From Spirogloea muscicola (Eukaryota > Streptophyta > Zygnematophyceae > Spirogloeales > Spirogloeaceae), in assembly GCA_009602725.1 (NCBI GenBank), contig WELB01000038.1:196425-217176 (forward strand): a stretch of DNA of 20,752 nt. The letters are read 5' to 3'. Each line of letters starts with the position of its first letter. The first letter of the stretch is position 1. A model generated the notes under the pieces. That model worked only from the letters and a program-made list of their open reading frames with translations, was not told the origin of the DNA and did not search any database. Both the position numbers and the translations under genes were made by a program. Shown here piece by piece: positions 3,425 through 18,489 of this stretch.

Positions 3425-4045
3425 CCTTTGGGCTGGCCTCTCCCAGCCACCAGTCAATCTGGCCGCGCTTGCTCTCTTAGTGCAGTTTCCGCGCACAGTT
3501 CTGCATGTCAATAAGCCCATGAAGACAACAGCTGAGACTCAACAGCTCCACGGCTGGAAGAAGAAAGTGCTCGCCCATTGAGGATAGGGGCTGGAAAAGC
3601 CAGCCCAAGAAAGAATAAACAGAGTACGAGAAGGGGGCCAGAGGAAGCGCTAAGAAAACAAAGCACACAAAGAAAGAAAGAGAGAAGGGCTCGCCCATTG
3701 AGGATAGGGGCTGGAAAAGCCAGCCCAAAAAAGAATGAAGAGGAACAGCAGCTACAAATCACTCAGTAACCCCTGCTAAGCAGCCGCAAATCAGAGAGGC
3801 TAGGGTCCTGAAAGTGGGTCCCCTGGCCAGAGCCAGAGGCAGCAGCAAGAGCCCGGCCGGCACGAAGGTGCAGCGCACGGGCCATCGACCGCTGCAGCGA
3901 GACGGCCAGGCGCATGCGATACAATTGCGCCAGCCGGAGGGCTCTCCTCCACTCTCCTTCATCGCCGGGCTGGTCGCGCCCTTGCAAAGAAGAAAAGCGC
4001 GGCCGATCTGACTGGTGGCTGGGAGAAGCCAGCCCAAAAGAGAGA
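3425..4045. repeat. inverted pair of about 50-bp repeats bounding 520 bp
   Basis: The minus strand of 3425-3475 and the plus strand of 3996-4045 share AGCGCGGCC, a GATCTGACTGGTGGCTGG-like stretch and the GAGAAGCCAGCCCAAA tail, with a few substitutions and a small indel. Together they could act as terminal inverted repeats of a foldback or MITE-like unit. A shorter piece (GCGCGGCCAGATTGACTGGT) also occurs at about 9102-9121. No target-site duplication was found by eye. Confidence 0.55.
3569..3736 (+). repeat. 48-bp direct repeat, 120 bp apart
   Basis: Copies at 3569-3616 and 3689-3736 differ at one base. Each begins GCTCGCCCATTG and ends with the CCAGCCC-A-rich-GAAT tail. The first twelve bases recur at about 4389. 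The DNA between the copies is purine rich (AGAAAGAAAG type). Confidence 0.9.
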
Positions 4046-4504
4046 GAAGGCGCGTGGGGCGCATGAAATGAAAGGGAGGCCAATTCAAGCCAGTACATTG
4101 TTCAGGCGAAGGCTAAAAAGGAATGGACAAGGTCAAGGGGAGCCGAATGGCGCAGAAAGCAGGGGACTAAGTGCTGAGACGACAAGGAGGCTCTCAGTAA
4201 CCTCTAGTCAGCAAGTGCAGGTCAGAATAGCTAGAGGGCGGGAAGACGTCGCCCTGACGAAACCCGGAGGCAGCCGCCAGGGCGCGGCCTGCACGTAGGT
4301 GGACGGCAAACGCAAGAGACCGCTGGAGGGAAACGGCAAGGCGCATCCTGTGCGAGGGACCCGGCGACGTTGAAGAAAAGAAGAAAGGGCTCGCCCATTG
4401 TTGAAGCCAGGCTGCTCGCCGGTCTTGCAGCAGCCTCTGGCTTGCGCAGCGGGGTTGCTCTTCCTCCCCTCAGCTCATCTGACTTCCTACTGCTGACACG
4501 GGGG

Positions 4505-4510
4505 TATATT
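4505..4510 (+). promoter_or_regulatory. TATA-like element of the plastidic glucose transporter gene
   Basis: TATATT lies in a GC-rich setting 125 bp before the chosen ATG at 4635. A start of transcription about 30 bp downstream would give a leader of roughly 100 nt. That leader would contain two upstream ATGs (4546, 4558) out of frame with the main start. Confidence 0.4.
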
Positions 4511-4634
4511 GAGGGCGCCCTGTCTGCCTAGCCTTTGGCTCCGTCATGAACACCTGTATGCATCTGGCTGGCATTTCACAGCCGATTCTTTCATATCAGC
4601 AGCCGCATTCATTCCACACTCATCCTCCGCCGAC

Positions 4635-7600
4635 ATGCAGCCCGTCGCGGCCGCGGCCGCCGCCGCCGCCCTCCCCGCCGTCGCCGCCGCCGCCGNGCGG
4701 CCGCTGCTACGCCAGGCCTCGGCGCGGAGGCGCCTGGCGGCGGCCGCGGCGCTCGCCGGTGACGGCGGCCAGGCCGCGCTGCCGCCTGACGGAGCTGCGA
4801 CGAGCTCGGCGTCCTTCCCCCGCGCGGTCGCGGTGGCCTGCCTCGGCGCCCTGCTCTTCGGCTACCACCTCGGGTGAGCAAGCTCAACAATTATCAAGCT
4901 CCGCATCCCGCCGTCTCCTTTCCCCGTAGGGGAGGGCCACTTTCGCTTCTCTCAGAGCATTGGAGCTCCAGGGCGTGGCCTCAAAGCAGTGTAAGTGGCA
5001 GGCGCTTGTCTGCCCCTTGTACTAGTCAGTTCGTATTACCACAGCACCAGCGTTGGAGAGTCTTCGTGAATGAGAAACGGATTGTTCAGCAGCAATGCCA
5101 GGGCGCTATCCTCTCCGCACGCTTGTGCTCATGAGCCGATTGTGTTGCGGTAACAATTACTGACCATCCAATACCTGTGCTCCAGTCTGGACGCAATGGA
5201 TGGGAGGTTTGGTATATGTCAATCTCCACGCATAGTGCATCACCTTGTCGCTGACCTCAGGCCCTCGCATCTGACAGGGTCGTCAATGGAGCCCTGGAGT
5301 ACATTGCCCGGGACCTGGGCTTCTTGCCAGAGGGCGTTACGGCAGGTACAAAGGCATGGGAAACCAGCCACCTTGTCCAGCACTGCGCTTGCACCCTCCA
5401 GTCTAAGTGGTCGTCTGAGCTTAACTCAACAACGCTCCTGCTACATTGCAGACTCCTTCTTCACCACACCTCCTCGAGGAGAGGTGTGCCATCATTTGAC
5501 CTTCAACTGTCAATTGACTGAGGGCAGGCGTTCTGATTGCTGGCAGGCTGGGTGGTCAGCATCACCCTAGTTGGGGCGGCCATTGGGTCGCTGACAGGCG
5601 GCGGGCTCGCCGACCAGCTGGGAAGGACAAGGACCTTCCAGCTTAACGCCATTCCACTTATAATTGGGACCCTCCTCAGGTGCTGCATTGTGTGCCAGCA
5701 AGCTCTGTGTCCTCCTAGCCAGGTGGCCATTCCATCTTAATGACATGCTGCAACTTGTGTGAACGTTCAGACAGAGGTTCTGTAAGCCTCTGGCTGCACA
5801 GAGAAGGGCCCTCGCTGTCACTCAAGGCTGCTCACATGATTCTGGCTCCACAATGGCTGCTCCTGATTTGCTCACACAGCATGCACTATTTACTACTTCT
5901 GACATGAACAACCACTGATCTGGAGTGCTATTCATTGTGGTCTGTCGAGAAGCGCTAGCGCAACTTCTTTGAGATTGATGCTGGTGGGTCGTGCACTTGT
6001 GGGCGTCGGAGTTGGCCTGATCTCTAGCGCTGTTCCTCTCTACATCTCTGAGGTGAAGGCGATAGCGAGGCATTGCACCCTTGCCTTAATCGCAGAGTGC
6101 CATTACCAAGGGCTTGTTCCTCGTCATACAAACTCAACTGTAACTCAGCAGAGGATTTGCTACTGTGGTTGCTCATTCCAGGTTGCTCCAACGGAGCTCC
6201 GGGGCAGGTTGGGATCCATGACGCAGCTTGCAATAAATATTGGGATACTGGGGGCACTCCTGGCTGGGCTTCCCCTTCCGAACAACCCCTCTTGGTAGGA
6301 CAATTGACAGCTGCAACCCACTGATGCAGAGGAGCTTGACACCTTGTTTGTCAAAGTACTTAGGTGAGGGCAGCCTTATTGGCAGGTGGCGGACCATGTT
6401 TGCAGTCGCCAGCATTCCTGCAGTGGCGCTTGCAGTGGGCATGGCGTTTTCACCTGAAAGCCCGCGCTGGCTGGAGAAGGTCCGTGCTTGGCCAATGCGG
6501 ACCACAATGTGTAACACCACCACAGCGATACTCCCCAAATGACAATGCTTTGGTTCCCCAAGTATGAGGATGATGAGGAAGCCAGGACCTGACCAGAAAG
6601 GAAGAATCACTGTCATTCATCATAAGCATCTCTGCCTGCACATCAGCAAGGGCGGCTGCAAGAGGCTGAAATTGTGGCGGAGCAGCTGTGGGGAGGCCGA
6701 CAACCTTCCAGAACAAACACACAGAGCAAGGATAAGGAGGAGGAACAAGCCAACATTTTGGACCTCTTTGGACCCCTATATAGGAAAGGTGAGTGATGGG
6801 AAAACTGTCGAAGGAGACAGCAGGCTTGCTCTGTAGTATTTCAGACCACTGAACTGGCCTGCTATTTAGCCAGTCAATTAGCTGCTCCTTGCAGCCCAAC
6901 TTCTCTTCTTGAAGCGAGTGTAGATGTTCCTGGTGCACTGGCGGCAAGAAGTAGCCATAGCAGCTGGCTTGGACAATTGCATCTTTGTCACAAGTGGAGT
7001 ACAGACTGATTGCTGTCAGAGCCTTCACTTGAGGTCCTTCAACATTCTATTGCTCAAGCTTAATATTGCTACTTTGGTTTGTTCTTGGACCTAGCACTGT
7101 GTCTCCAACCAAATGCAGTTGCTGCTCTTTGCACACGTGCAGTTGTGGCTGTTGGATGCGCTGTCTTTATCTTCCAACAGTTTGCTGGGATAAATGCTGT
7201 CATATATTTCTCGTCCAACGTGTTTCGTAAGGCCGGTGTCACATCTGATACTGCCGCATCAGCTCTTGTAGGTGCTGCAAACGTTGTAGGTAAGGAGTGC
7301 ATGGTCAAACCACCCGACTTCGTGCTTTTATCATGGAAGCAATTTAGTTTCACCAGCTGATGCAAAGGCAATTCTATCAAGCATGTCCTTTGAGCGATGA
7401 AAAGGGTATGCTGCTGCAGTAGTCAGCTCCTTTGATTGCAGGTTGCAAGGACTTTGAAGAACAACACCGAAGTTACTAGAGAGATGTACAAGGGCCCTTG
7501 TACATCTCTCTAGTAAGAGAGATGTACAAGGGCCCTTGTACATCTCTCTAGTAACTTCGGTGTTGTTCTTCATCACGTTATCAAATAAAAGAATTTAAGA

Positions 7601-10632: not shown

Positions 10633-11770
10633 GCAAAGCTAGCCTTGCTCTAGCACAAGAACGCCGGCGAGGCAAGCATTCGTCTGTTGGGCGGATCTCC
10701 CATCGACGACATATGGCATGCCCGAGAGCGGCCTTAAGAGCATGGCACACGACGGCCATCTCGGCGGCTGCCATGGCGACGCCTCAGAGGACAACTGTTT
10801 GCCACTTGAGGTGAAGCGGCTGTTGGCCCCAACTCGGCCGCCCCGAGCTTTCGGTGAGCACTGGGCTCACGGGGGAAGGCCCAGGTCCGGCTTGCTCGGC
10901 GGGACGCTGAGGCAGCACAGTTGTAGACAAAGCGCGCAAGCTGTGCCTAAATCCTAAACCCCCTAACCCAAAATCTCAACCCTGAAGCTAAATCAGGCAC
11001 GCTCCACGATAATTGCAGCGGGGGGAGTCGTTGCAGGCAAGCACCAGAGGCAGGCCGCCGTCGTGCACGAGCCTGCCAGAGCTCGTGCTGCGACGTGCCA
11101 CGTTTCCGCAGCGGGCCCCGCAGCGTCGGCGACCGCCGGTAGTCGTGTGTGCAGCCTCGGGGGGCTCTGGCCGTCGCAGCGCCTGCTTTGCCCCTTCCGG
11201 GCTAAACACTCCATTTCCGGGCCGCCAGGTCGAGCCGGGGCGGCGGCCGCTGGGCGCCGGGCTTGGGAGGTTGCCCGGCTTGGCGCGGCGCTCGGGGCGG
11301 CGACGTGGCGGCTGGCGCAGGGCGAGGCCCCGACGAGCAGCTTCTCCCGCAAGACGAGCAGCTTCTCCCGCAATTAGCTGCCTCGTCTCTTTCTGTGGGA
11401 CCCTGTCGTTGTCTTGTGGGCTGGCCATCCGTCTGCAGCCTTCGCCGCTTTTGGAAGTGGGCTTTTCCAAAAGAGGGCGACGGTTGTGAGAAGAAACTGC
11501 TCTTCCAATGTAAGCAAAGGCCAGCCCAAAAAAGATTGATGCTTGTCCTGGGGGGCCACGGCCGCCAGAGCCGGGAATAGGCGGCGGGGACGCGGGGCAG
11601 GGACCTGTCATGCGAGTAGGTGTCGGTGCGAAATGACGTCGATAGGTCTAGACGATAACAGACCTTGACCAGCTGACATGGAAAACAGTCTGATAAAGGT
11701 CAACAATTGTCGTCAGTTGTCAAAGAGCACAACAGATAAACAGCTCAAGACATGGTGAAATTTGACTATG
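10633..11770. other. GC-rich stretch without a supported gene
   Basis: Long overlapping open frames on both strands (for example 10988-11611 reverse and 11013-11489 forward) are explained by high GC and show Arg/Pro/Ala-rich, motif-free translations. It contains a degenerate telomere-like patch (10946-10970, CCTAAATCCTAAACCCCCTAACCC type), a 21-bp tandem duplication (11332-11373) and a partial copy of the CCAGCCCAAAAAAGA repeat tail (11520-11536). The last part, 11640-11770, adjoins the broken end of the retrotransposon. Confidence 0.4.
11332..11373 (+). repeat. 21-bp perfect tandem duplication
   Basis: GACGAGCAGCTTCTCCCGCAA occurs twice head to tail (11332-11352, 11353-11373). Confidence 0.9.
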
Positions 11771-12253
11771 TAGTATTGAGAAAACCTTTGCAGAACCGAC
11801 ACGGTTGAAGATTTCCTCGGGTGTTGGCATTGGATACCTATCCAATGGAGTATGAGCCTTCAGCAAACGATAATCACCGCACATTCGACGGTCAGTATAA
11901 TTCCCATTTTCGTCCTTCTTTGCCGGGAGAACAGTAGGTGCTGCAAATGAACTATTAGAAGGTTCAATCATGCCAAGAGCAAGCAATTCTTGGCACCTCT
12001 TTTCCACAAGCTCATCCTCAAAGGGAGACAATGTATACCTCTTACGATAGATAGGCTTGTCACTACTGAGAGTGATTTGGAATTCAGCACCTATATAAGT
12101 TCCCAAGTCGGCTGCTGAGAATGCAAAGCATACAATGTTCTCCTGCAGCATGTTTGTTAATGCGCGCTTTTGCTTATCACATAATTGAGGACCCAGCTGC
12201 CACTTGTACTCAATAATGTCTTTGTTAGCAGCATGGGCAACAACCTGTGGTTG
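11720..12253 (-). pseudogene. reverse transcriptase, 3'-truncated, in frame after a UAG
   Basis: The frame runs directly from the codon after the UAG at 12256-12254 (next codon CAA) to a stop at 11722-11720. Its first ATG is at 12151. It shows the early Ty3/gypsy RT motifs: YRKRYTLSPFEDELVEKRCQ, LLALGMIEPSNSSFAAPTVL, then CGDYRLLKAHTPLDRYPMPT and VGSAKVFS. In intact elements this is followed by a (L)DL(R)SGYHQI motif and later by YVDD; both are missing. Similarity ends near 11771, after which about 17 unrelated residues precede the stop. The upstream part (12253-12152) has no ATG, so the RT would be made only as a fusion to the methyltransferase polyprotein. No active RT can come from this copy. 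Confidence 0.85.
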
Positions 12254-12262
12254 CTACATGGC
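12248..12262 (-). promoter_or_regulatory. possible leaky UAG between methyltransferase and RT
   Basis: On the element strand the codons are GCC ATG TAG CAA CCA, with TAG at 12256-12254. The six bases after the stop, CAACCA, fit the CARYYA consensus of readthrough stops such as that of tobacco mosaic virus, and the RT frame continues without change. The alternative is a single C-to-T change of a CAG Gln codon. Confidence 0.5.
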
Positions 12263-15200
12263 TTCAGTGTCCTCTGCAGGATCTGCAAAGTCAAATAAAG
12301 CGAACAGTTTCTTGTCTATATCAGACAATCCTGGTGCACCTGGCTGGAGACTTTTCTCATAGGCATCCTGCAGTGCTGCGTATTGTGTCTGAATACGTCC
12401 CAAGACGCTAGTCAGCCAAGTGATGCTGTTCAGATCCAATGCTTGGCCTATCAAGCTATTCTTCTGGTCGAATGTAAAGTGTGCAGGCGTTATGTCACCT
12501 GGCCAGAAGCCCATTGCTTTCTCACGTTCCCGAGGAGTAGGAACACCAAATTGTCCGCGACGATGAGCAGCAGTAGGAGGTCCAGTCATCACCATCCCTT
12601 GGCCGATATCTCCATTTGGTTGGATGCTAAACGCATAAGAACGGGGCCGCGCCACAAATGTTGGGAAAGAACGTCGCTCCTGGTATGAGTCGTTGACGGG
12701 ATGATTCCTAACATAACCTGGAACTGGGAGTAGTTGTCTTCCGGTATCCAAGATGAGAGCGGCCTTGGCATCATTGTGCGGATACTGCTCGTCGATGCAC
12801 GCTTGGAGTAGAGGCACTGGAGCCAGATTGGTCCAGAACAGCCTTACCCTATCAGCTAAAGAGCTGACTCTGACTGCATCTAGTTCAACACATGGGCCCA
12901 TAATATGAAACAATCGCCTAAAGTCTCTCGCAGCGGGTGATCCCTCCGGCGGCTTCACATTCTCTACTACATACCCCATAGGAGCATCCTGTCTGCTGCG
13001 AATGTTCCTCATCATAGTTAACATCTTGAAGAAAAGCTTGGTCTCGGGGTGGTCGAAACCGTAACCCTGACCTGCACCGCTGAACCCGCCACACGGGAAC
13101 CCGGCTATGACGAGGTCCACCTGTGGAAGTAGCTTCAAGTATTTTGGCTTGCTGGCTTCGTTGATATCTCCTGGCAGTAAGGTGTCCCAGTCCTTGAATG
13201 TTTCTGGGGTCACCAAGTGGCTATAACGCTCCTGCAATATTGCAATGTGGTGTGCCGCCGCTTCCCTTGCAAACTTGTCGTTGTCCACATACAAGTATCG
13301 AGCAGCCTTAAAGCGGCTCCTGAGCAGACCTGCCAAGCCGGTTGCTACTCCACCAAATAACTCCAACACTACAAGGCCTTTCTCGCCAAAGTCGAAGGGA
13401 ATGACTCCTGCATAGAATCGCTTGTCTTCCTTCGGACCAAGGTTTGTGCCTGGATCAACAAACTCCAGTACTTCAAATGCCTTCTCACCCCAAGCGTCGG
13501 CCACTCTGATTGCCGCCGCTTTGGTCCATTCTGGTAACATAGCGAGGTACCTTCTGTACCGTTCTTCCACCTCCAGTTCGTCCAAGTCATGGTCGCTCAT
13601 ATCCTGTAGGGTCAAAGCTTTAAGCAACCTGGGTGGCTGCAAGATGTTCTGGAGTGCACCTGTGGACAAAACTCTCTTCAATCCACCAGGCACGATTGCC
13701 GATGAAGAAACTGCTGCATTGGGTGGTGGAGGTGGTACCTCCTCCTTGGGCTTCTCTGGTGCCTCCGCTTTGTCCTTCTTGGCTGCTGCTAGCTTTCTCT
13801 CCTTTGCTGCTGTTTCCTCTTCCTTAAGACGCAGCTCAGACTGTGCCTCGTCCTCTGGACGAGGCTTCTCCATCTCTTCCTTGTCTTCGGGCTCAGTCAC
13901 ACCCTCAAATCCGCCCCCTGGGTTTTCTGCCAAGTCCTTCTTCTCAGGAACTTCAGAGGTGGGTGCTGCGGTATTAACCTGAGCACCTGAATGACAATAC
14001 GATTTCAACAAAGGTAAATGAACTGTATGGACACCAGAGTTCCTCCAATCCGGCCTGTACCAGGCAATCTCAGAGTAAAAATCTAGACCAAAACCAATAG
14101 GTACTAGGAACTTGGTACCAAGCAGAATGTCATAAGTGTCTGCCTGGGTTATCATACAAGTCAGAGTAAGATGTGTCATCTTTCCCGGTACGTTAGCGTG
14201 TAACGTGATTCTCAACGGTTTCTTAGTCAGTCCCACAATACTCTCAGTACCGCCTGTGGCAGTTTTAATCTTGCTGAGTATGTCTTCAGGCTGCAAATTC
14301 AACTTCGCAATCATGTTACGACCTAGTAGTACAGGCTGTGCTCCTGTATCTAGTAGAACAACCGTAGGTCGGACTGCTGCAACCTCTAATATCCCTGTGG
14401 AATTATCAAGCAGAGTGACTGATGAGAACTGCTTCTTTCTTTCTTCATATGACCTGTAAGGCAAAACATCTCTACTGAAAAAAAGTGCCTTCTTCTCAGC
14501 ATATGCTACAACTTCCACAGGTGCTATCTGCAAATCCTGTACTTCTCCTACAGCGGTACCTGTGGCTAGCATACTGCTCAACTTTTCCTTAGACCATCCC
14601 AAATCACTAAAACTCAGGACAGGTGAAATGTGAGTCCTGTCCAACAGCTTGTCAGTAGAACACTTGTAATCAACACTAAGCTCAGTAGTGGCAGTAGCCT
14701 TCGGCTTAGTGGTCCTCAAGACAACCTGTGGCTCAGTTAGGAGAATGTCAGATTGAATTGGCTTCAACTTAAAACTGGTAGGAAACCTGGCATTTCCTGT
14801 CCTACCAAGCTGCTGTACAGCACTCTCTCCTCTCTTCAATGGGTTCCTGCTTGTAGTGCCAGACTCTGGAGCTGCAGCAACAATTGTGACAAGATGGGAC
14901 TGCTGATACTTCTGTGACGACCCTGCCTCATAATGAGTAGCGTACATACTTTCTAGTTCATCATCATTATCATCTGCATTCGACTGCACAAGAGCAACAG
15001 CGGCCGACTTGGCCCTAGCCTTAGACTCGCTAACAGCTAGCTGTTGAGTCAAGTGTTCTATCTGCTTCTGCATCTTCTGCAGTTGGTCACCATCAACACG
15101 GCTAACGTCAGCTGAAGAATGACCCTGTCCCAATGCATTCTTGCTACGAAACTGAGCAGGCATCTTCTCCGGATGCTTTCTCCAGCATTGAAACTCCTGA

Positions 15201-15628
15201 TGACCTGTCCTTGAGCAATGAGTACAAGTTGCCCCAGCAGTCTGATGACGTGACGAGCAATTCTTAGCAATGTGGCCTACCTTGCCACAATTGTGGCAGG
15301 TCACAGCAGGACGGGGAGTGTATTTACCCTGACAAACGTCCTGCACCTGAGCTGTATCTGGAATTGCTACATGTGCTTTAGAATGTCCTGTTGGAACCTT
15401 CCTGACATAAGGAATGACAGGAACAACTTTCTTATCTAGTCCCACAAAAGAACCTGATGCAATAGCAAAGCGATCATCTAGGCTCGATAGAGTAGCATCT
15501 GCAGACTCCTTCTGCAATGACACCTGATAAACATCTTCAAGATTGTATTGCAATTTACCATGTTCCTTCATGCGCATGGTTAACAGGTTCATCACCTGCC
15601 AGACTGCCTTTCCTGCAACAACCTTCAA
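12254..15628 (-). CDS. retrotransposon polyprotein: zinc knuckles, protease, DNMT3-like cytosine methyltransferase
   Basis: The open frame has 1,124 codons; its first codon is TTG at 15628, so it is probably reached from Gag rather than started there. Residues 1-60 continue the capsid. Two CCHC knuckles lie at 111-124 and 135-148, a predicted coiled coil at about 181-210, and an aspartic protease with DTGA at 427-430 and ILLG at 501-504. A Glu/Lys/Pro-rich linker covers 551-640. The methyltransferase covers about 750-1085: motif I VVLELFGGVATGL (753-765), motif IV GFPCGGFSG with catalytic Cys846, motif VI YVVENV (886-891), motif VIII DRVRLFWTN (926-934), a target-recognition stretch (about 935-1030), motif IX TPREREKAMGF (1031-1041), motif X LIGQALDLNSITWL (1059-1072). 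The linear motif order excludes plant DRM enzymes, which are permuted. LFGGVATGL, DAVRVSSLADRVRLFW and the short spacing resemble DNMT3. The expected reaction is transfer of methyl from SAM to cytosine C5. The residue after the catalytic Cys is Gly instead of the usual Gln or Asn. Active status is inferred only. Confidence 0.9.
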   Translation of the reverse strand: MKVVAGKAVWQVMNLLTMRMKEHGKLQYNLEDVYQVSLQKESADATLSSLDDRFAIASGSFVGLDKKVVPVIPYVRKVPTGHSKAHVAIPDTAQVQDVCQGKYTPRPAVTCHNCGKVGHIAKNCSSRHQTAGATCTHCSRTGHQEFQCWRKHPEKMPAQFRSKNALGQGHSSADVSRVDGDQLQKMQKQIEHLTQQLAVSESKARAKSAAVALVQSNADDNDDELESMYATHYEAGSSQKYQQSHLVTIVAAAPESGTTSRNPLKRGESAVQQLGRTGNARFPTSFKLKPIQSDILLTEPQVVLRTTKPKATATTELSVDYKCSTDKLLDRTHISPVLSFSDLGWSKEKLSSMLATGTAVGEVQDLQIAPVEVVAYAEKKALFFSRDVLPYRSYEERKKQFSSVTLLDNSTGILEVAAVRPTVVLLDTGAQPVLLGRNMIAKLNLQPEDILSKIKTATGGTESIVGLTKKPLRITLHANVPGKMTHLTLTCMITQADTYDILLGTKFLVPIGFGLDFYSEIAWYRPDWRNSGVHTVHLPLLKSYCHSGAQVNTAAPTSEVPEKKDLAENPGGGFEGVTEPEDKEEMEKPRPEDEAQSELRLKEEETAAKERKLAAAKKDKAEAPEKPKEEVPPPPPNAAVSSSAIVPGGLKRVLSTGALQNILQPPRLLKALTLQDMSDHDLDELEVEERYRRYLAMLPEWTKAAAIRVADAWGEKAFEVLEFVDPGTNLGPKEDKRFYAGVIPFDFGEKGLVVLELFGGVATGLAGLLRSRFKAARYLYVDNDKFAREAAAHHIAILQERYSHLVTPETFKDWDTLLPGDINEASKPKYLKLLPQVDLVIAGFPCGGFSGAGQGYGFDHPETKLFFKMLTMMRNIRSRQDAPMGYVVENVKPPEGSPAARDFRRLFHIMGPCVELDAVRVSSLADRVRLFWTNLAPVPLLQACIDEQYPHNDAKAALILDTGRQLLPVPGYVRNHPVNDSYQERRSFPTFVARPRSYAFSIQPNGDIGQGMVMTGPPTAAHRRGQFGVPTPREREKAMGFWPGDITPAHFTFDQKNSLIGQALDLNSITWLTSVLGRIQTQYAALQDAYEKSLQPGAPGLSDIDKKLFALFDFADPAEDTEAM

Positions 15629-15635
15629 AACTGTG
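15625..15635 (-). other. frame break between capsid and zinc knuckles (-1)
   Basis: Zero-frame codons are CAG TTT TGA; the continuing frame starts one base earlier at TTG AAG. The only slippery feature is a run of four T. A classical X-XXY-YYZ heptamer is absent, and an obvious downstream pseudoknot was not seen by eye. A simple one-base insertion, or an assembly indel in the homopolymer, is therefore at least as likely as programmed shifting. Confidence 0.6.
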
Positions 15636-16284
15636 CAGCAAGGTCTTGTGAGCCAAGAGAGACTTTTGACTTCTCAACCAATTCCTCATATCGAATATAA
15701 CATGCAGTAAGGGTCTCTCCAGACTCGCGACTGAACTTAAAGAGATCCTGCTTGTACTGACTTGAATTGTCAGGGAATTGCTTTGCCATCAGCTTAAACA
15801 TTTCCTCTACCGGATCCTTAAGCAGTTGAGGACCGGCTGACTTCTCAACTTCAGTGGCAGTGTCTGCAATTGGTACCGTTTTAGCCAGAACCTCCTGGTG
15901 GACCTTACGGAACATATTTCCTGCAGATCCCGTGAAATACTTGGAGAGCAGAGTCATTCTCTGCTCCCGGCCCACCTTAAACCCCTGTATGTCAAGTTCA
16001 CACATCTCTGCTACGAAAGCTTGTTTGACCTCAGCCAAAGAGTGCCCACCTTCAGTTCCTTGGAACTTAGGGCGCTCTCCAGATGCCATGATGCGTCTCC
16101 TTCGTACCCGAGAAGTTGAAGATGGTGGAGCTACTGCAGTCCCAACCGCTGATGGTATGCCTGTAGCAGCACCAGATTCGGGTGTAGATGATTCAGAGTT
16201 AAACAAATCAGCAATACTCTGATCGTCCAGCTCTGCAAGAGTTTGATCGTCCAGCGTGACGACTTTGCCAGACCTAAGTCGCAT
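15625..16284 (-). CDS. retrotransposon Gag, N-terminal and capsid part
   Basis: The first ATG of the open frame is at 16284 (MRLRSGKVV); the frame itself is open from 16296. The product is 219 residues. An Asp/Ser-rich N-terminus (about residues 10-50) precedes a basic RVRRRRIM patch. The capsid part that follows is typical of Ty3/gypsy Gag in its helix spacing: VKQAFVAEMCELDIQ, YFTGSAGNMFRKVHQEV, VEEMFKLMAKQFPD, QDLFKFSRESGETLTACYIRYEELV. It stops at TGA 15627-15625, immediately where the polyprotein frame opens one base back (TTG, 15628-15626). The zinc knuckles lie in that second frame, so the break falls inside Gag, between capsid and nucleocapsid. Either a single inserted base in the TTTT run (15627-15630) or a -1 frameshift explains it. 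Confidence 0.8.
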   Translation of the reverse strand: MRLRSGKVVTLDDQTLAELDDQSIADLFNSESSTPESGAATGIPSAVGTAVAPPSSTSRVRRRRIMASGERPKFQGTEGGHSLAEVKQAFVAEMCELDIQGFKVGREQRMTLLSKYFTGSAGNMFRKVHQEVLAKTVPIADTATEVEKSAGPQLLKDPVEEMFKLMAKQFPDNSSQYKQDLFKFSRESGETLTACYIRYEELVEKSKVSLGSQDLAAQF

Positions 16285-16760
16285 ACAATAGACCACAAAG
16301 GTAGGTCAATGTTCAACAACAACCGCTTTGAGAATACTGCACGAAACTCCTTGATACTAGCGGCAAATCCAAGCAACTGTCTCACTAGCAGCCTTGAGCA
16401 AGACGTCCAAGCAAAGTCCGAACAACTAACTCAAACACAAGAGAACAATGCCAGGATACCAAAGCTCAGAGAATCCGCTAGAGTCCGCTTGGCAATCGAT
16501 GGGAACGTGACAGTGCCCGGTAACCAGTATCAAGGGTCTCAAAGTATCCCTATCTACTTGTATGTTCCAATCCTCCCTCAAAGAAGCGGTCTCTATCTAC
16601 GAAGGACTATCGGTACAAGCCCCCACCTTTTCTGTGTTTGTGATTTAACAAGCAATGCAGCCAATGGATGCACGCAAACAATCGATTCGAAACGTGCACT
16701 CAAACAATGAGCGCAACTCTTCAGATGTAGAGACAGGCAAGAATAGCACAATGTAAATGC
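16285..16760 (-). other. probable 5' untranslated leader or LTR part of the retrotransposon
   Basis: This stretch upstream of Gag has moderate GC and no supported coding frame. Base composition changes sharply to GC-rich near 16780, which may mark the element edge. No convincing tRNA-complementary primer site next to a TG/CA border was recognised, and with the 3' end missing there is no second LTR to compare. Confidence 0.35.
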
Positions 16761-16876
16761 TGCTTACCACACAGACAGAACGACTTCTCGCCGTCGCAGC
16801 GGGTCCGCACGCAAGCTCGCTAGCGCGCACGCCGTATACGCCGGGCTCTGCCCTCTCGCGGACGCGGGCGCGAGTA

Positions 16877-16921
16877 GGCGCAGGCTTGGTCGGCGCAGGC
16901 GCGGTGGGCGCAGGCGCGGCA
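16877..16921 (+). repeat. 15-bp tandem repeat, three units
   Basis: Three units of the type GGCGCAGGCGCGGTG (16877-16891, 16892-16906, 16907-16921) with a few substitutions, inside a GC-rich block from 16780 to 17000. The block also holds AAACCCTAGC at about 16991, a telo-box-like sequence common in plant promoters. Confidence 0.8.
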
Positions 16922-17043
16922 GGAGGGTGAGGATTGCCAAGCGGACTGCCTGGCCTATAGCGTGCGCCTCCGCATGGGCCCGACGCGGCGAAACCCTAGC
17001 GCTACCTGATAGGCCAGATGCGGCCGTTGGCTACGCTGGTTGG

Positions 17044-17421
17044 CTAAGCTGAATTGCGGCCTGCGTGGGCCGTTTCCAACCATGGATGGACATATCCAAT
17101 GGTCTGCTGCCCGGTCGCCCCGCACACCGCTTCGGTAGCGCCCACCTTGACGGTCTTGTTGGTGGTTGAGGTACCTGTAGATGGGCATTCCTCGTTGCGC
17201 TTTGAACGGTCTTCGGCTTGTTGGCGTCGCGTGTGGGCTTGGGCCCTTGTAGTCACGCCGTTGTTGTGGTTGTCCGCACTTGATGAGCGGTCGATGTTGT
17301 TGTTGGTGTTGTCCGCTTCGGAAGAGCGGTCGATGTCGTTGTTGTCGCCGAAAGAGAAAGTCGGTGTCGCCGAAAGAGAAAGTCGATGTCGCCGAGAGTC
17401 AGAGGTGGGTGGAACCTCCAT
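17044..17421 (-). CDS. hypothetical Asn/Ser/Arg-rich ORF, possible Gag N-terminus fragment
   Basis: A 125-codon ATG-initiated frame. Residues 24-55 carry two repeats around (N)NIDRSS-ADN, then TTRAQAHTRRQQAEDRSKRNEE, then an unremarkable tail to the stop. N-terminal TTRAQ/TRSR-type sequences before a basic helix are frequent in plant retrotransposon Gag proteins, and it points in the same direction as the neighbouring retrotransposon. No capsid or zinc knuckle follows before the stop. The opposite strand is also open (17054-17536) because of the repeats, so coding status is uncertain. I do not recognise a family. Confidence 0.25.
   Translation of the reverse strand: MEVPPTSDSRRHRLSLSATPTFSFGDNNDIDRSSEADNTNNNIDRSSSADNHNNGVTTRAQAHTRRQQAEDRSKRNEECPSTGTSTTNKTVKVGATEAVCGATGQQTIGYVHPWLETAHAGRNSA
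17270..17398 (+). repeat. GTT/GTC-rich tandem repeats
   Basis: Two units around TTGTCCGC-GAGCGGTCGATGT-GTTGTTG (about 17270-17338) are followed by 22-bp units beginning GTCGCCGAAAGAGAAAGTCG (from about 17345; two full units and one partial). Confidence 0.75.
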
Positions 17422-17582
17422 TGTCAGCGTGAATCACACACAAAAGTGCATGACCCAGCCTAGGAGCCACATAGGGAGAAGAGTGGTCCTCCATCCTCAG
17501 CGTGAAACACCCACCGAAGTGAATGAGTCAGCCTAGTAAGGCCACGTGTGAAGCCCAGTCAGCCACGTGTGAAGCCCAGTCA
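17415..17582 (+). repeat. tandem duplicated promoter-like block with two G-box units
   Basis: A block of about 56-58 bp is duplicated (17415-17470 and 17488-17545; both contain CCTCCAT, TCAGCGTGAA, ACAC and CAGCCTAG). It is followed by a perfect 21-bp tandem duplication, GCCACGTGTGAAGCCCAGTCA (17541-17561, 17562-17582), each with CACGTG, the core of the plant G-box. Duplicated enhancer units just before a TATA-like motif are typical of LTR U3 regions and of some inducible promoters. Confidence 0.8.
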
Positions 17583-17603
17583 ACTGTCCTAGTCAGATCG
17601 ACA

Positions 17604-17611
17604 TAAATAGG
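17604..17611 (+). promoter_or_regulatory. TATA-like element after the G-box repeats
   Basis: ATAAATAG lies 22 bp after the second G-box unit. The reverse complement (CTATTTAT) is also TATA-like, so the direction is not certain; the position of the duplicated block argues for forward transcription. Confidence 0.35.
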
Positions 17612-17692
17612 CAGTCGACAGGATACAGCACGACAGACCCTTCAATGTGCTTACCTTTGTACTTTGGCCACACATGGCCCTCCATCTCTTAA

Positions 17693-17932
17693 TACACACT
17701 CCTTCAGCACACACACGACGTGGCAGATGTGTTTCCGGCTGAGATGGGCTTGCCAGCTGCATATCTGTCGTTCTTGCGACGACGAGTTTCGGCCTGTTTG
17801 CAGCGTGCTCAGGCTAATGCCTTGCACCAAAAAGCTGGGCGAGCTCTAGTTGGTGGCAGAAGGCCTTCGTATATGACATCTAGTATTCATGCATCGATTA
17901 GCGACCTTTATGTTTTGACCCGTGGGTACTGA
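17693..17932 (+). CDS. hypothetical small ORF or exon, unrecognised
   Basis: The frame is open from 17693 to a TGA at 17932, with its first ATG at 17744 (62 codons). A pyrimidine stretch ending CCTTCAG at 17707 could be a splice acceptor, so it may be an exon. The translation has protein-like composition, with MGLPAAYLSFLRRRVSACLQ as a possible basic amphipathic helix, then HQKAGRALVGGRRPSYMTSS. It lies downstream of the G-box/TATA block and may be transcribed from it. I do not recognise a family and cannot exclude chance. Confidence 0.25.
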   Translation, partial: YTLLQHTHDVADVFPAEMGLPAAYLSFLRRRVSACLQRAQANALHQKAGRALVGGRRPSYMTSSIHASISDLYVLTRGY

Positions 17933-18489
17933 GCGGGTCAATCTGCTGTAGGTTATGCAGATGTTTAGTTGTGCTTGCCTCGGCCATTTGGCCTACGTTT
18001 GTTTCGAATACACGAAATCCCTCCGGCAGAAGCAGCTCTTTCCAATAGAAGGAAGGCGCGCGGTGCGCATGATAATGAAAGGGAGGTCAACCTGAGCCTT
18101 GCAGAAGTCCTGGTAACGGGGCAATAAGCTGGCTAAGGGGGACACTAAAGGTGGACACCAAGGGGACACTAGTATCCACGAGTGAGCACATACATATCTT
18201 ACGAGCTAAGCTGAGGAGCCAGACCACCACCACAGAAGCCAGTAGCCTGGCCTAGTGCGCATCCAGCACGCTGGTGTATCTCGGGTGCCTGGGAGCGCTG
18301 CAGACTCAATGATAACCGTTTCTAGCAAGCAACAACACGCAAATAACAAGCAAAAGGGGGGCGATACCTGTAAAATGAATGTGGCGCTCCCCAAGGGGGC
18401 GAGGTCTGTGAACAGCCAGACCGAGGAATTTTTGACATGGTCAGAAGGGGCCGTAAAGCGCTGAACAAATTGCTAAGAAGGACCATCAC

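Follow-up and report, generated by a model that had tools for sequence, protein, structure and literature searches.

A DNMT3-like methyltransferase followed by a conserved leaky-context stop codon in a Gypsy-like retrotransposon family of Spirogloea muscicola

Previous studies have described Gypsy retrotransposons carrying a Dnmt3-type DNA methyltransferase (DNMT) in Klebsormidium, where the enzyme is placed in the open reading frame (ORF) of the Pol polyprotein, and have reported de novo CG methylation by retrotransposon-encoded DNMTs in yeast (de Mendoza et al. 2018, PMC5890265). Here, we analysed a 20,752-nucleotide stretch of the Spirogloea muscicola genome (hereafter the window; contig C38, WELB01000038.1, bases 196425–217176, in an assembly of 153 Mb and 471 contigs) which, judged from its sequence, contains one copy of a DNMT-bearing retrotransposon family, a copy that is dead and has an internal deletion. 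DNMT-bearing Gypsy elements are already known from Klebsormidium; the present family additionally displays a putatively leaky stop codon, gag, a PHD finger, split repeats and apparent self-priming. It resembles KnitGypsy-Dnmt3 of Klebsormidium nitens in its Gypsy domain set, in the DNMT within the polyprotein (of Dnmt3 type in Klebsormidium, DNMT3-like by profile rank here), in being intronless and under purifying selection and, according to a figure legend, in its DIRS-like repeats (PMC5890265), but its host is a zygnematophyte. The main text of PMC5890265 (as distinct from its figures and supplements) does not use the words readthrough, PHD or gag, and target duplications, TG...CA ends and self-priming of the Klebsormidium element were not found in the available portion of that paper.

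SymbioDIRS-Dnmt3 of Symbiodinium also carries a DNMT in a polyprotein, there of Dnmt3 type, together with repeats arranged A-coding-B-A-B, but it has a tyrosine recombinase (PMC5890265), whereas the Spirogloea family has an rve integrase and 4-bp target duplications, so that DIRS-like repeats here occur together with an rve integrase. Membership among the DIRS retrotransposons is contradicted by the presence of rve and H2C2 domains, by the target duplications and by the lack of a tyrosine recombinase match in the long copy on contig C2. Among the listed titles and abstract beginnings of the open-licence literature, we found no report of a leaky stop behind a retrotransposon DNMT, nor of DNMT-bearing retrotransposons in Zygnematophyceae. 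The 82 loci described below probably extend the range of DNMT-bearing Gypsy elements from Klebsormidium to the Zygnematophyceae, the sister group of land plants.

Consistent with the original prediction, a single open frame of 1139 codons (stop to stop 12254–15673, on the minus strand like all features given below within the element) joins nucleocapsid knuckles and an aspartic protease to the DNMT and ends at a TAG (12254–12256), beyond which the next frame (11720–12253), in the same register, opens the reverse transcriptase (RT). The first of two CCHC knuckles (15257–15301 and 15185–15226) was recognized by Pfam (zf-CCHC, 3.5e-6) and the second by eye. The protease (14105–14371, residues 435–523, with DTGA within 14333–14356) matched gag-asp_protease at 7.3e-6 and 26.9 bits, slightly below the curated cut-off of 28.2. 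The DNMT domain (12422–13495) was delimited by Pfam (DNA_methylase, 5.5e-10), profile search and alignment, and contains the predicted motifs in linear order: I (13334–13369), IV (PCGGFS, 13079–13102, cysteine codon 13091–13093), VI (ENV, 12947–12964), and segments that are VIII-like (12827–12853), IX-like (12638–12673) and X-like (12425–12460). These motif labels were assigned by eye.

The stop codon between the DNMT and the RT lies in the in-frame context TAG-CAA-CCA (12248–12256). CAR YYA is essential for readthrough in tobacco mosaic virus (TMV), UAG, UAA and UGA are all decoded in this context in plants, and readthrough is mentioned among rice gypsy elements (PMC2754532). UAG followed by CAR-YYA is thus common to the TMV-type leaky stop and the present one, which differs in its position at a DNMT/RT boundary and in the use of UGA in some subfamilies. 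We read 40 DNMT/RT junctions (C17, C101 and C142 at 374 kb had no readable junction); two of the rows, C39b and C39b_inv, are the arms of one palindrome and the copies are related, so that the 40 are not independent. A stop was present in 36 of them (27 TAG, 9 TGA and no TAA), the CAR-YYA hexamer in 33, and both together in 30, the window included. As background, CAR-YYA follows 79 of the 21,566 stop triplets counted over all frames at the loci analysed in the same genome, a count that includes overlaps and the junctions themselves, and 3 of 1428 stop triplets within the window. The stop alternates between UAG and UGA among subfamilies. Where the hexamer is kept, the codon after CAA is TTA, TCA, CCA or CTA; because the encoded residue varies (Leu, Ser or Pro) while YYA remains constant, it is the nucleotides and not the amino acids that are conserved. 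The stop is missing in C134, C248, C269 and C365, three of which still have the hexamer, and deviant hexamers occur in C246 (CAATCG), C135 (AAACGA) and C1 (CGATCA). This conserved leaky-context stop behind the DNMT constitutes the strongest new point of our analysis. Its position downstream of the DNMT places the enzyme on the Gag side; we infer that Gag-nucleocapsid-protease-DNMT would be the major product and RT-integrase-PHD, reached by readthrough, the minor one.

Were the DNMT instead a decaying passenger that dates from a single capture, the stop would be a disabling mutation. This is very improbable: the stop and the hexamer are kept across subfamilies despite the exchange of TAG and TGA, and the ratio of nonsynonymous to synonymous rates (dN/dS) is 0.12–0.22 in five of the seven printed DNMT pairs with dS of 0.1–0.8, even though most DNMT matches are broken or partial and the window copy itself is broken. 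Rates were calculated by the Nei-Gojobori method for pairs with dS of 0.05–1.5 and at least 60 codons, broken copies included. The median dN/dS was 0.194 for the DNMT (18 pairs, range 0.12–0.83) and 0.179 for the RT (34 pairs, range 0.07–0.58), and values for the protease spanned 0.15–0.79 in 3 pairs only. The youngest pairs (dS 0.08; C174, C39 and C66) gave 0.46–0.83, as expected if copies decay once inserted. In the longer term, the DNMT appears to be kept about as strictly as the RT polymerase. Furthermore, in an alignment of eight DNMT rows picked for long open frames, PCxGFS, ENV and DRxRxxWTNLAP are invariant.

A search of the genome for other copies, as the original prediction had proposed, returned at least 115 matches to the DNMT piece, grouped in 3-kb steps into 82 loci; the count is a lower bound, 114 of 266 first-look candidates having been scored. 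Open frames without stops, of 704–1411 amino acids (aa), were found in 9 of the 115 DNMT rows. On C2, gag, knuckles, protease and DNMT lie within one frame of 1411 codons (knuckles 18.3 bits against a cut-off of 20.8, protease 21.9 against 28.2, DNMT 45.9). Past the in-frame stop, a second frame of 1037 codons encodes RT, RNase H, H2C2, rve integrase and a PHD finger (1e-9), all above the Pfam cut-offs, whereas no match to a chromodomain was found in this copy. The Gypsy domain order RT-RNase H-integrase is therefore seen in C2, and the window copy retains only the start of the RT. When the integrase C-terminus and PHD finger were used as the query, 150 matches were obtained, many of them partial, at least 12 of which lie about 2.3–2.7 kb downstream of the RT of the DNMT-bearing family.

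The association of DNMT and RT was then traced from the RT side. The RT of the window had 150 genomic matches, the best 56 of which were taken as near. By coordinates, a DNMT lies 0–2.5 kb upstream in the same orientation in 37 of these 56, and 7 of the remaining 19 show the C-terminal tail of a DNMT when the DNA is read. Of the other 94, 31 were checked by coordinates only, and a single one (C26) has a DNMT upstream within 10 kb. A tree of 42 RT fragments separated 10 far Gypsy RTs (branch length 1.09, support 1.0) from the other 32, which form the DNMT-bearing family and include some rows (such as those on C101 at 278 kb and on C142 at 374 kb) in which the DNMT is unconfirmed, the upstream DNA being rearranged or unread. 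The small groups of the RT tree recur, as judged by eye, in a tree built from 19 DNMT rows. The earlier claim that the DNMT is cargo of the element holds, because the DNMT is multicopy, occurs in long open frames, directly adjoins the RT in most of the near RT rows and is under purifying selection. The case named beforehand as pointing to a single chimeric accident, DNMT-free copies together with an identical host gene, was not seen: there is no well-formed DNMT-free sister among the copies read, and C101 at 278 kb, with no DNMT reading upstream, is rearranged there. A host gene struck by an insertion, or a chimeric accident, is ruled out by copy number, and with many copies sharing the same order and target duplications on both sides, such an origin or an assembly chimera has a negligible probability.

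As a separate observation, 11 of the 82 loci have the DNMT in both orientations less than 3 kb apart (e.g. L037, L029, L035, L056 and L016). Four of five such loci tested are spacerless palindromes of about 1.0–2.2 kb in total, 91–95% self-complementary, and the fifth has a spacer. They could be products of snap-back or self-integration, or hairpin sources of small RNA.

The enzyme had also been called DNMT3-like, a designation that stood in part. A profile built from eight copies ranked DNMT3A first in the PDB (9e-11), with DNMT3B also at the top and the DNMT3A match spanning motif IV through the region after VIII; this rank is, however, the sole basis of the name, and the bacterial HaeIII scored 1.5e-9, followed by HhaI (4e-8), DRM2 (1e-3), DNMT2 (0.2) and DNMT1 (0.3). 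With single sequences, the window DNMT retrieved DNMT3A first, and the C2 DNMT retrieved HhaI first with no DNMT3 listed. The motif order is unpermuted and does not suggest a DRM-type rearrangement. DNMT3-like is consequently the best label and no proof of origin.

Regarding the methyltransferases of the host, PF00145 had 71 genomic matches, and ten places were examined as possible host exons. Six of them (L086–L089, L093 and L094) match the element DNMT, L091 was identified as DNMT1, and L090 and L095 resemble DNMT1 by eye, L092 (C10) being the tenth. The host DNMT1 exon so identified is on C256, and C168 and C234 carry the same pair of PF00145 matches. No host gene resembling the element DNMT was found in these ten places or among the DNMT3A-query matches, the 71 matches not having each been classified. 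A 120-aa piece of human DNMT3A had 17 matches in the genome, each located where a member of the element DNMT family lies, and thus revealed no host Dnmt3 gene. The ADD_DNMT3 profile had no match in the genome, but it had none in the control genomes either and is hence uninformative. Viral contigs contained two distant relatives (29–34%), and bacterial and archaeal genomes contained distant relatives only (best 28%, 1e-15; 80 of the 91 found were kept). There is accordingly no sign of a recent donor in the viral, bacterial and archaeal sequences searched.

Alignment of its ends with other copies delimits the integrated element in the window to 6,030 bp (11606–17635), bounded by TGTC...GACA ends and flanked by the target-site duplication GACC on the left (11602–11605) and right (17636–17639). 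The TGTC...GACA ends occur in all seven copies whose two ends were read (window, C2, C19, C46, C3, C240 and C99), six of which have perfect 4-bp target duplications, C99 agreeing in 3 of 4 bases. Full-length copies with paired long terminal repeats (LTRs) had been suggested as an object of search; a long copy was found on C2, but it has no paired LTRs. Instead, the terminal repeat consists of two parts, delimited by recurrent alignment edges: part A, of about 1.14 kb (16495–17635; boundaries near q965 and q2106 in other copies), and part B, of about 172 bp (11606–11776; boundaries q15 and q186, arranged B-A-B on C17). The copy at 499 kb on C2 has the layout A-coding-B, with one A and one B; the window copy is likewise arranged, with an internal deletion, and no A or B repeat pair occurs within the window. 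C19, C46, C3, C240 and C99 are A-B. C17 is A-coding-B-A-B, its two A parts being 99.5% alike over 933 bp and its two B parts 96.5%; the left end of its first A lies in unread N, and its coding part is itself internally deleted. A second B-A(128 bp)-B end is found near 710 kb on C2, and on C66 a B without its last bases directly precedes an A. The absence of paired LTRs is thus explained by the split-repeat layout.

A putative primer-binding site, GATTGCCAAGCGGACT, lies at the boundary of A and the leader (16482–16497), and its perfect 16-nt complement, the putative self-primer AGTCCGCTTGGCAATC, lies inside A (16932–16947). The stretch directly after A is complementary to a stretch inside A in all five copies having both segments, with pairing of 16/16 in the window and C2, 15/16 in C17, and 14/16 in C174 and C66, and C2 differs from the window by compensatory changes. 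No tRNA primer site after A fits by eye (no tRNA comparison was run). The element therefore looks self-primed in its sequence. The Tf1/sushi and Tcn1 chromoviruses similarly have a primer site that complements an upstream stretch of the element itself and not a tRNA (PMC6317226); unlike them, the Spirogloea family has a PHD finger, a DNMT, no chromodomain match on C2 and no paired LTRs. A likely polypurine tract of about ten G directly precedes B on C17. This tract and the primer site after A together imply a reverse-transcribed repeat in the order B-A. The ends of the integrated copies fall instead at the palindrome GACAG|CTGTC, where B meets A, as though a circle had been opened at this point. 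Tentatively, and with more doubt than conviction, we propose a lineage in which the DNMT has turned into a Gag-level particle protein, a role secured by the conserved leaky stop downstream of it, and in which integration proceeds not from LTR ends but from a cDNA circle that a PHD-bearing DDE integrase opens at the GACAG|CTGTC palindrome within the repeat, the PHD finger acting as a reader. A one-repeat circle would then yield A-coding-B, as in C2 and the window, and a two-repeat circle A-coding-B-A-B, as in C17.

Taken as a whole, we moderately favour a self-primed Ty3/Gypsy-like family that encodes Gag-nucleocapsid-protease-DNMT and then, via a leaky UAG or UGA, RT-RNase H-integrase-PHD, and whose DNMT marks the element's own cDNA. 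Made at the Gag level, the DNMT would be present in many copies per particle, with RT and integrase as the minor product; most likely, the protease would free it inside the particle, where it would methylate cytosines of the new double-stranded cDNA. The copy would enter the genome already marked, the host DNMT1 could maintain the mark, and the element might benefit. Why a retrotransposon would carry an enzyme that silences transposons then becomes a testable question, since the leaky stop predicts that the DNMT is a stoichiometric component of the particle acting on cDNA. The position of the DNMT beside the nucleocapsid knuckles, on the Gag side where RNA is handled, could also suit an enzyme acting on element RNA (m5C) or a nucleic-acid-binding domain of the particle, with no action on the DNA of the copies; a Symbiodinium LINE DNMT tested in yeast did not methylate DNA, and RNA methylation was suggested (PMC5890265). 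We regard this as unlikely, given that the invariant motifs of the eight rows are of DNA type and that the closest relatives of solved structure act on DNA (DNMT3A/B, HaeIII and HhaI), whereas DNMT2, a tRNA enzyme, scored 0.2. An equally improbable alternative is that the DNMT modifies the host, either by methylating loci or promoters in trans or by restraining transposition and so sparing the host. Both ideas were raised in PMC5890265 and would fit the high copy number (82 loci), yet Klebsormidium, which carries such elements, has a land-plant-like methylome (PMC5890265).

Several observations weigh against marking of the element's own cDNA by a DNMT placed before a leaky stop. Ten of the 40 junctions lack either the stop or the hexamer; CAACGA is found in one subfamily (C341, C7 at 1055 kb and C115), and frameshifts in C7 at 1055 kb, C115 and C326 put the stop out of frame with the RT. 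Five printed DNMT pairs involving broken copies have dN/dS of 0.43–0.83. In C21, motif IV reads ECQGHS instead of PCxGFS, and this DNMT may be inactive. Structure prediction of the DNMT from a single sequence reached a pLDDT of 30 and was unusable. The ratio of observed to expected CpG (CpG o/e) speaks in favour of marking where it is 0.51–0.60, in the coding parts of the window, C2, C134 and C351 copies, compared with 0.98 for ten far-Gypsy RT fragments. It speaks against it in that the ratio rises to 0.87 in the C21 copy and to 0.77 for ten RT fragments from the DNMT clade, a set that includes GC-rich ones; part A is not CpG-depleted (about 1.0), and most of five host stretches of the window are no richer in CpG than the element (0.53–0.62 in three cases, 0.86 and 1.17 in two). 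The pattern is compatible with CG methylation of the element body, with age and composition as confounders. As for C21 itself (L064), it belongs to a GC-rich distant subfamily with the junction TAG-CAA-TCA.

The window copy is regarded as dead because its frames are out of step and its RT is cut off. A gag-like N-terminal part (15628–16305, with an MRLRSG... start near 16284) has no Pfam match and lies in a frame different from that of the next ORF, the two being out of step near 15.63–15.67 kb. The first part of the RT (11777–12250; longer on C2) is cut at part B by the internal deletion: RT identity ends at about 11777, where the sequence enters the repeat that closes the element. At this RT-to-B junction (11774–11780, at the start of B), three sister copies differ, and no clear microhomology accounts for it.

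Regarding the host context, GRAS genes gave 92 exon matches, many of them in sets of three by eye; GRAS is not known from algae other than Zygnematophyceae. The host genome looks triplicated in these matches, in the three places with the DNMT1 pattern and in the two further copies of 4480–7000 described below, and a genome triplication has been reported for S. muscicola (PMC7994812, PMC11712027). The insertion is absent from the C16 homeolog and is therefore younger than the split of the homeologs or was lost there; C16 is not a clean empty site, because about 500 further bp beside the insertion are also missing. The stretch at 4480–7000, beside the element, has two further long copies in the genome, 90% and 84% alike, and about 134 bp of it (4480–4614) recur in at least 30 other places at 94–99% among the matches listed. 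Positions 3–1430 hold a reading frame with a malectin-like domain (1.3e-30), probably part of a receptor-kinase-type host gene. Next to the element, a repeat of about 307 bp (17711–18018) has more than 15 other copies among the matches listed, at about 84–93% identity. The window also contains a perfect 57-nt inverted repeat with a 4-nt loop (7455–7572) and a 65-nt direct repeat, 89% alike and 120 bases apart (3558–3742).

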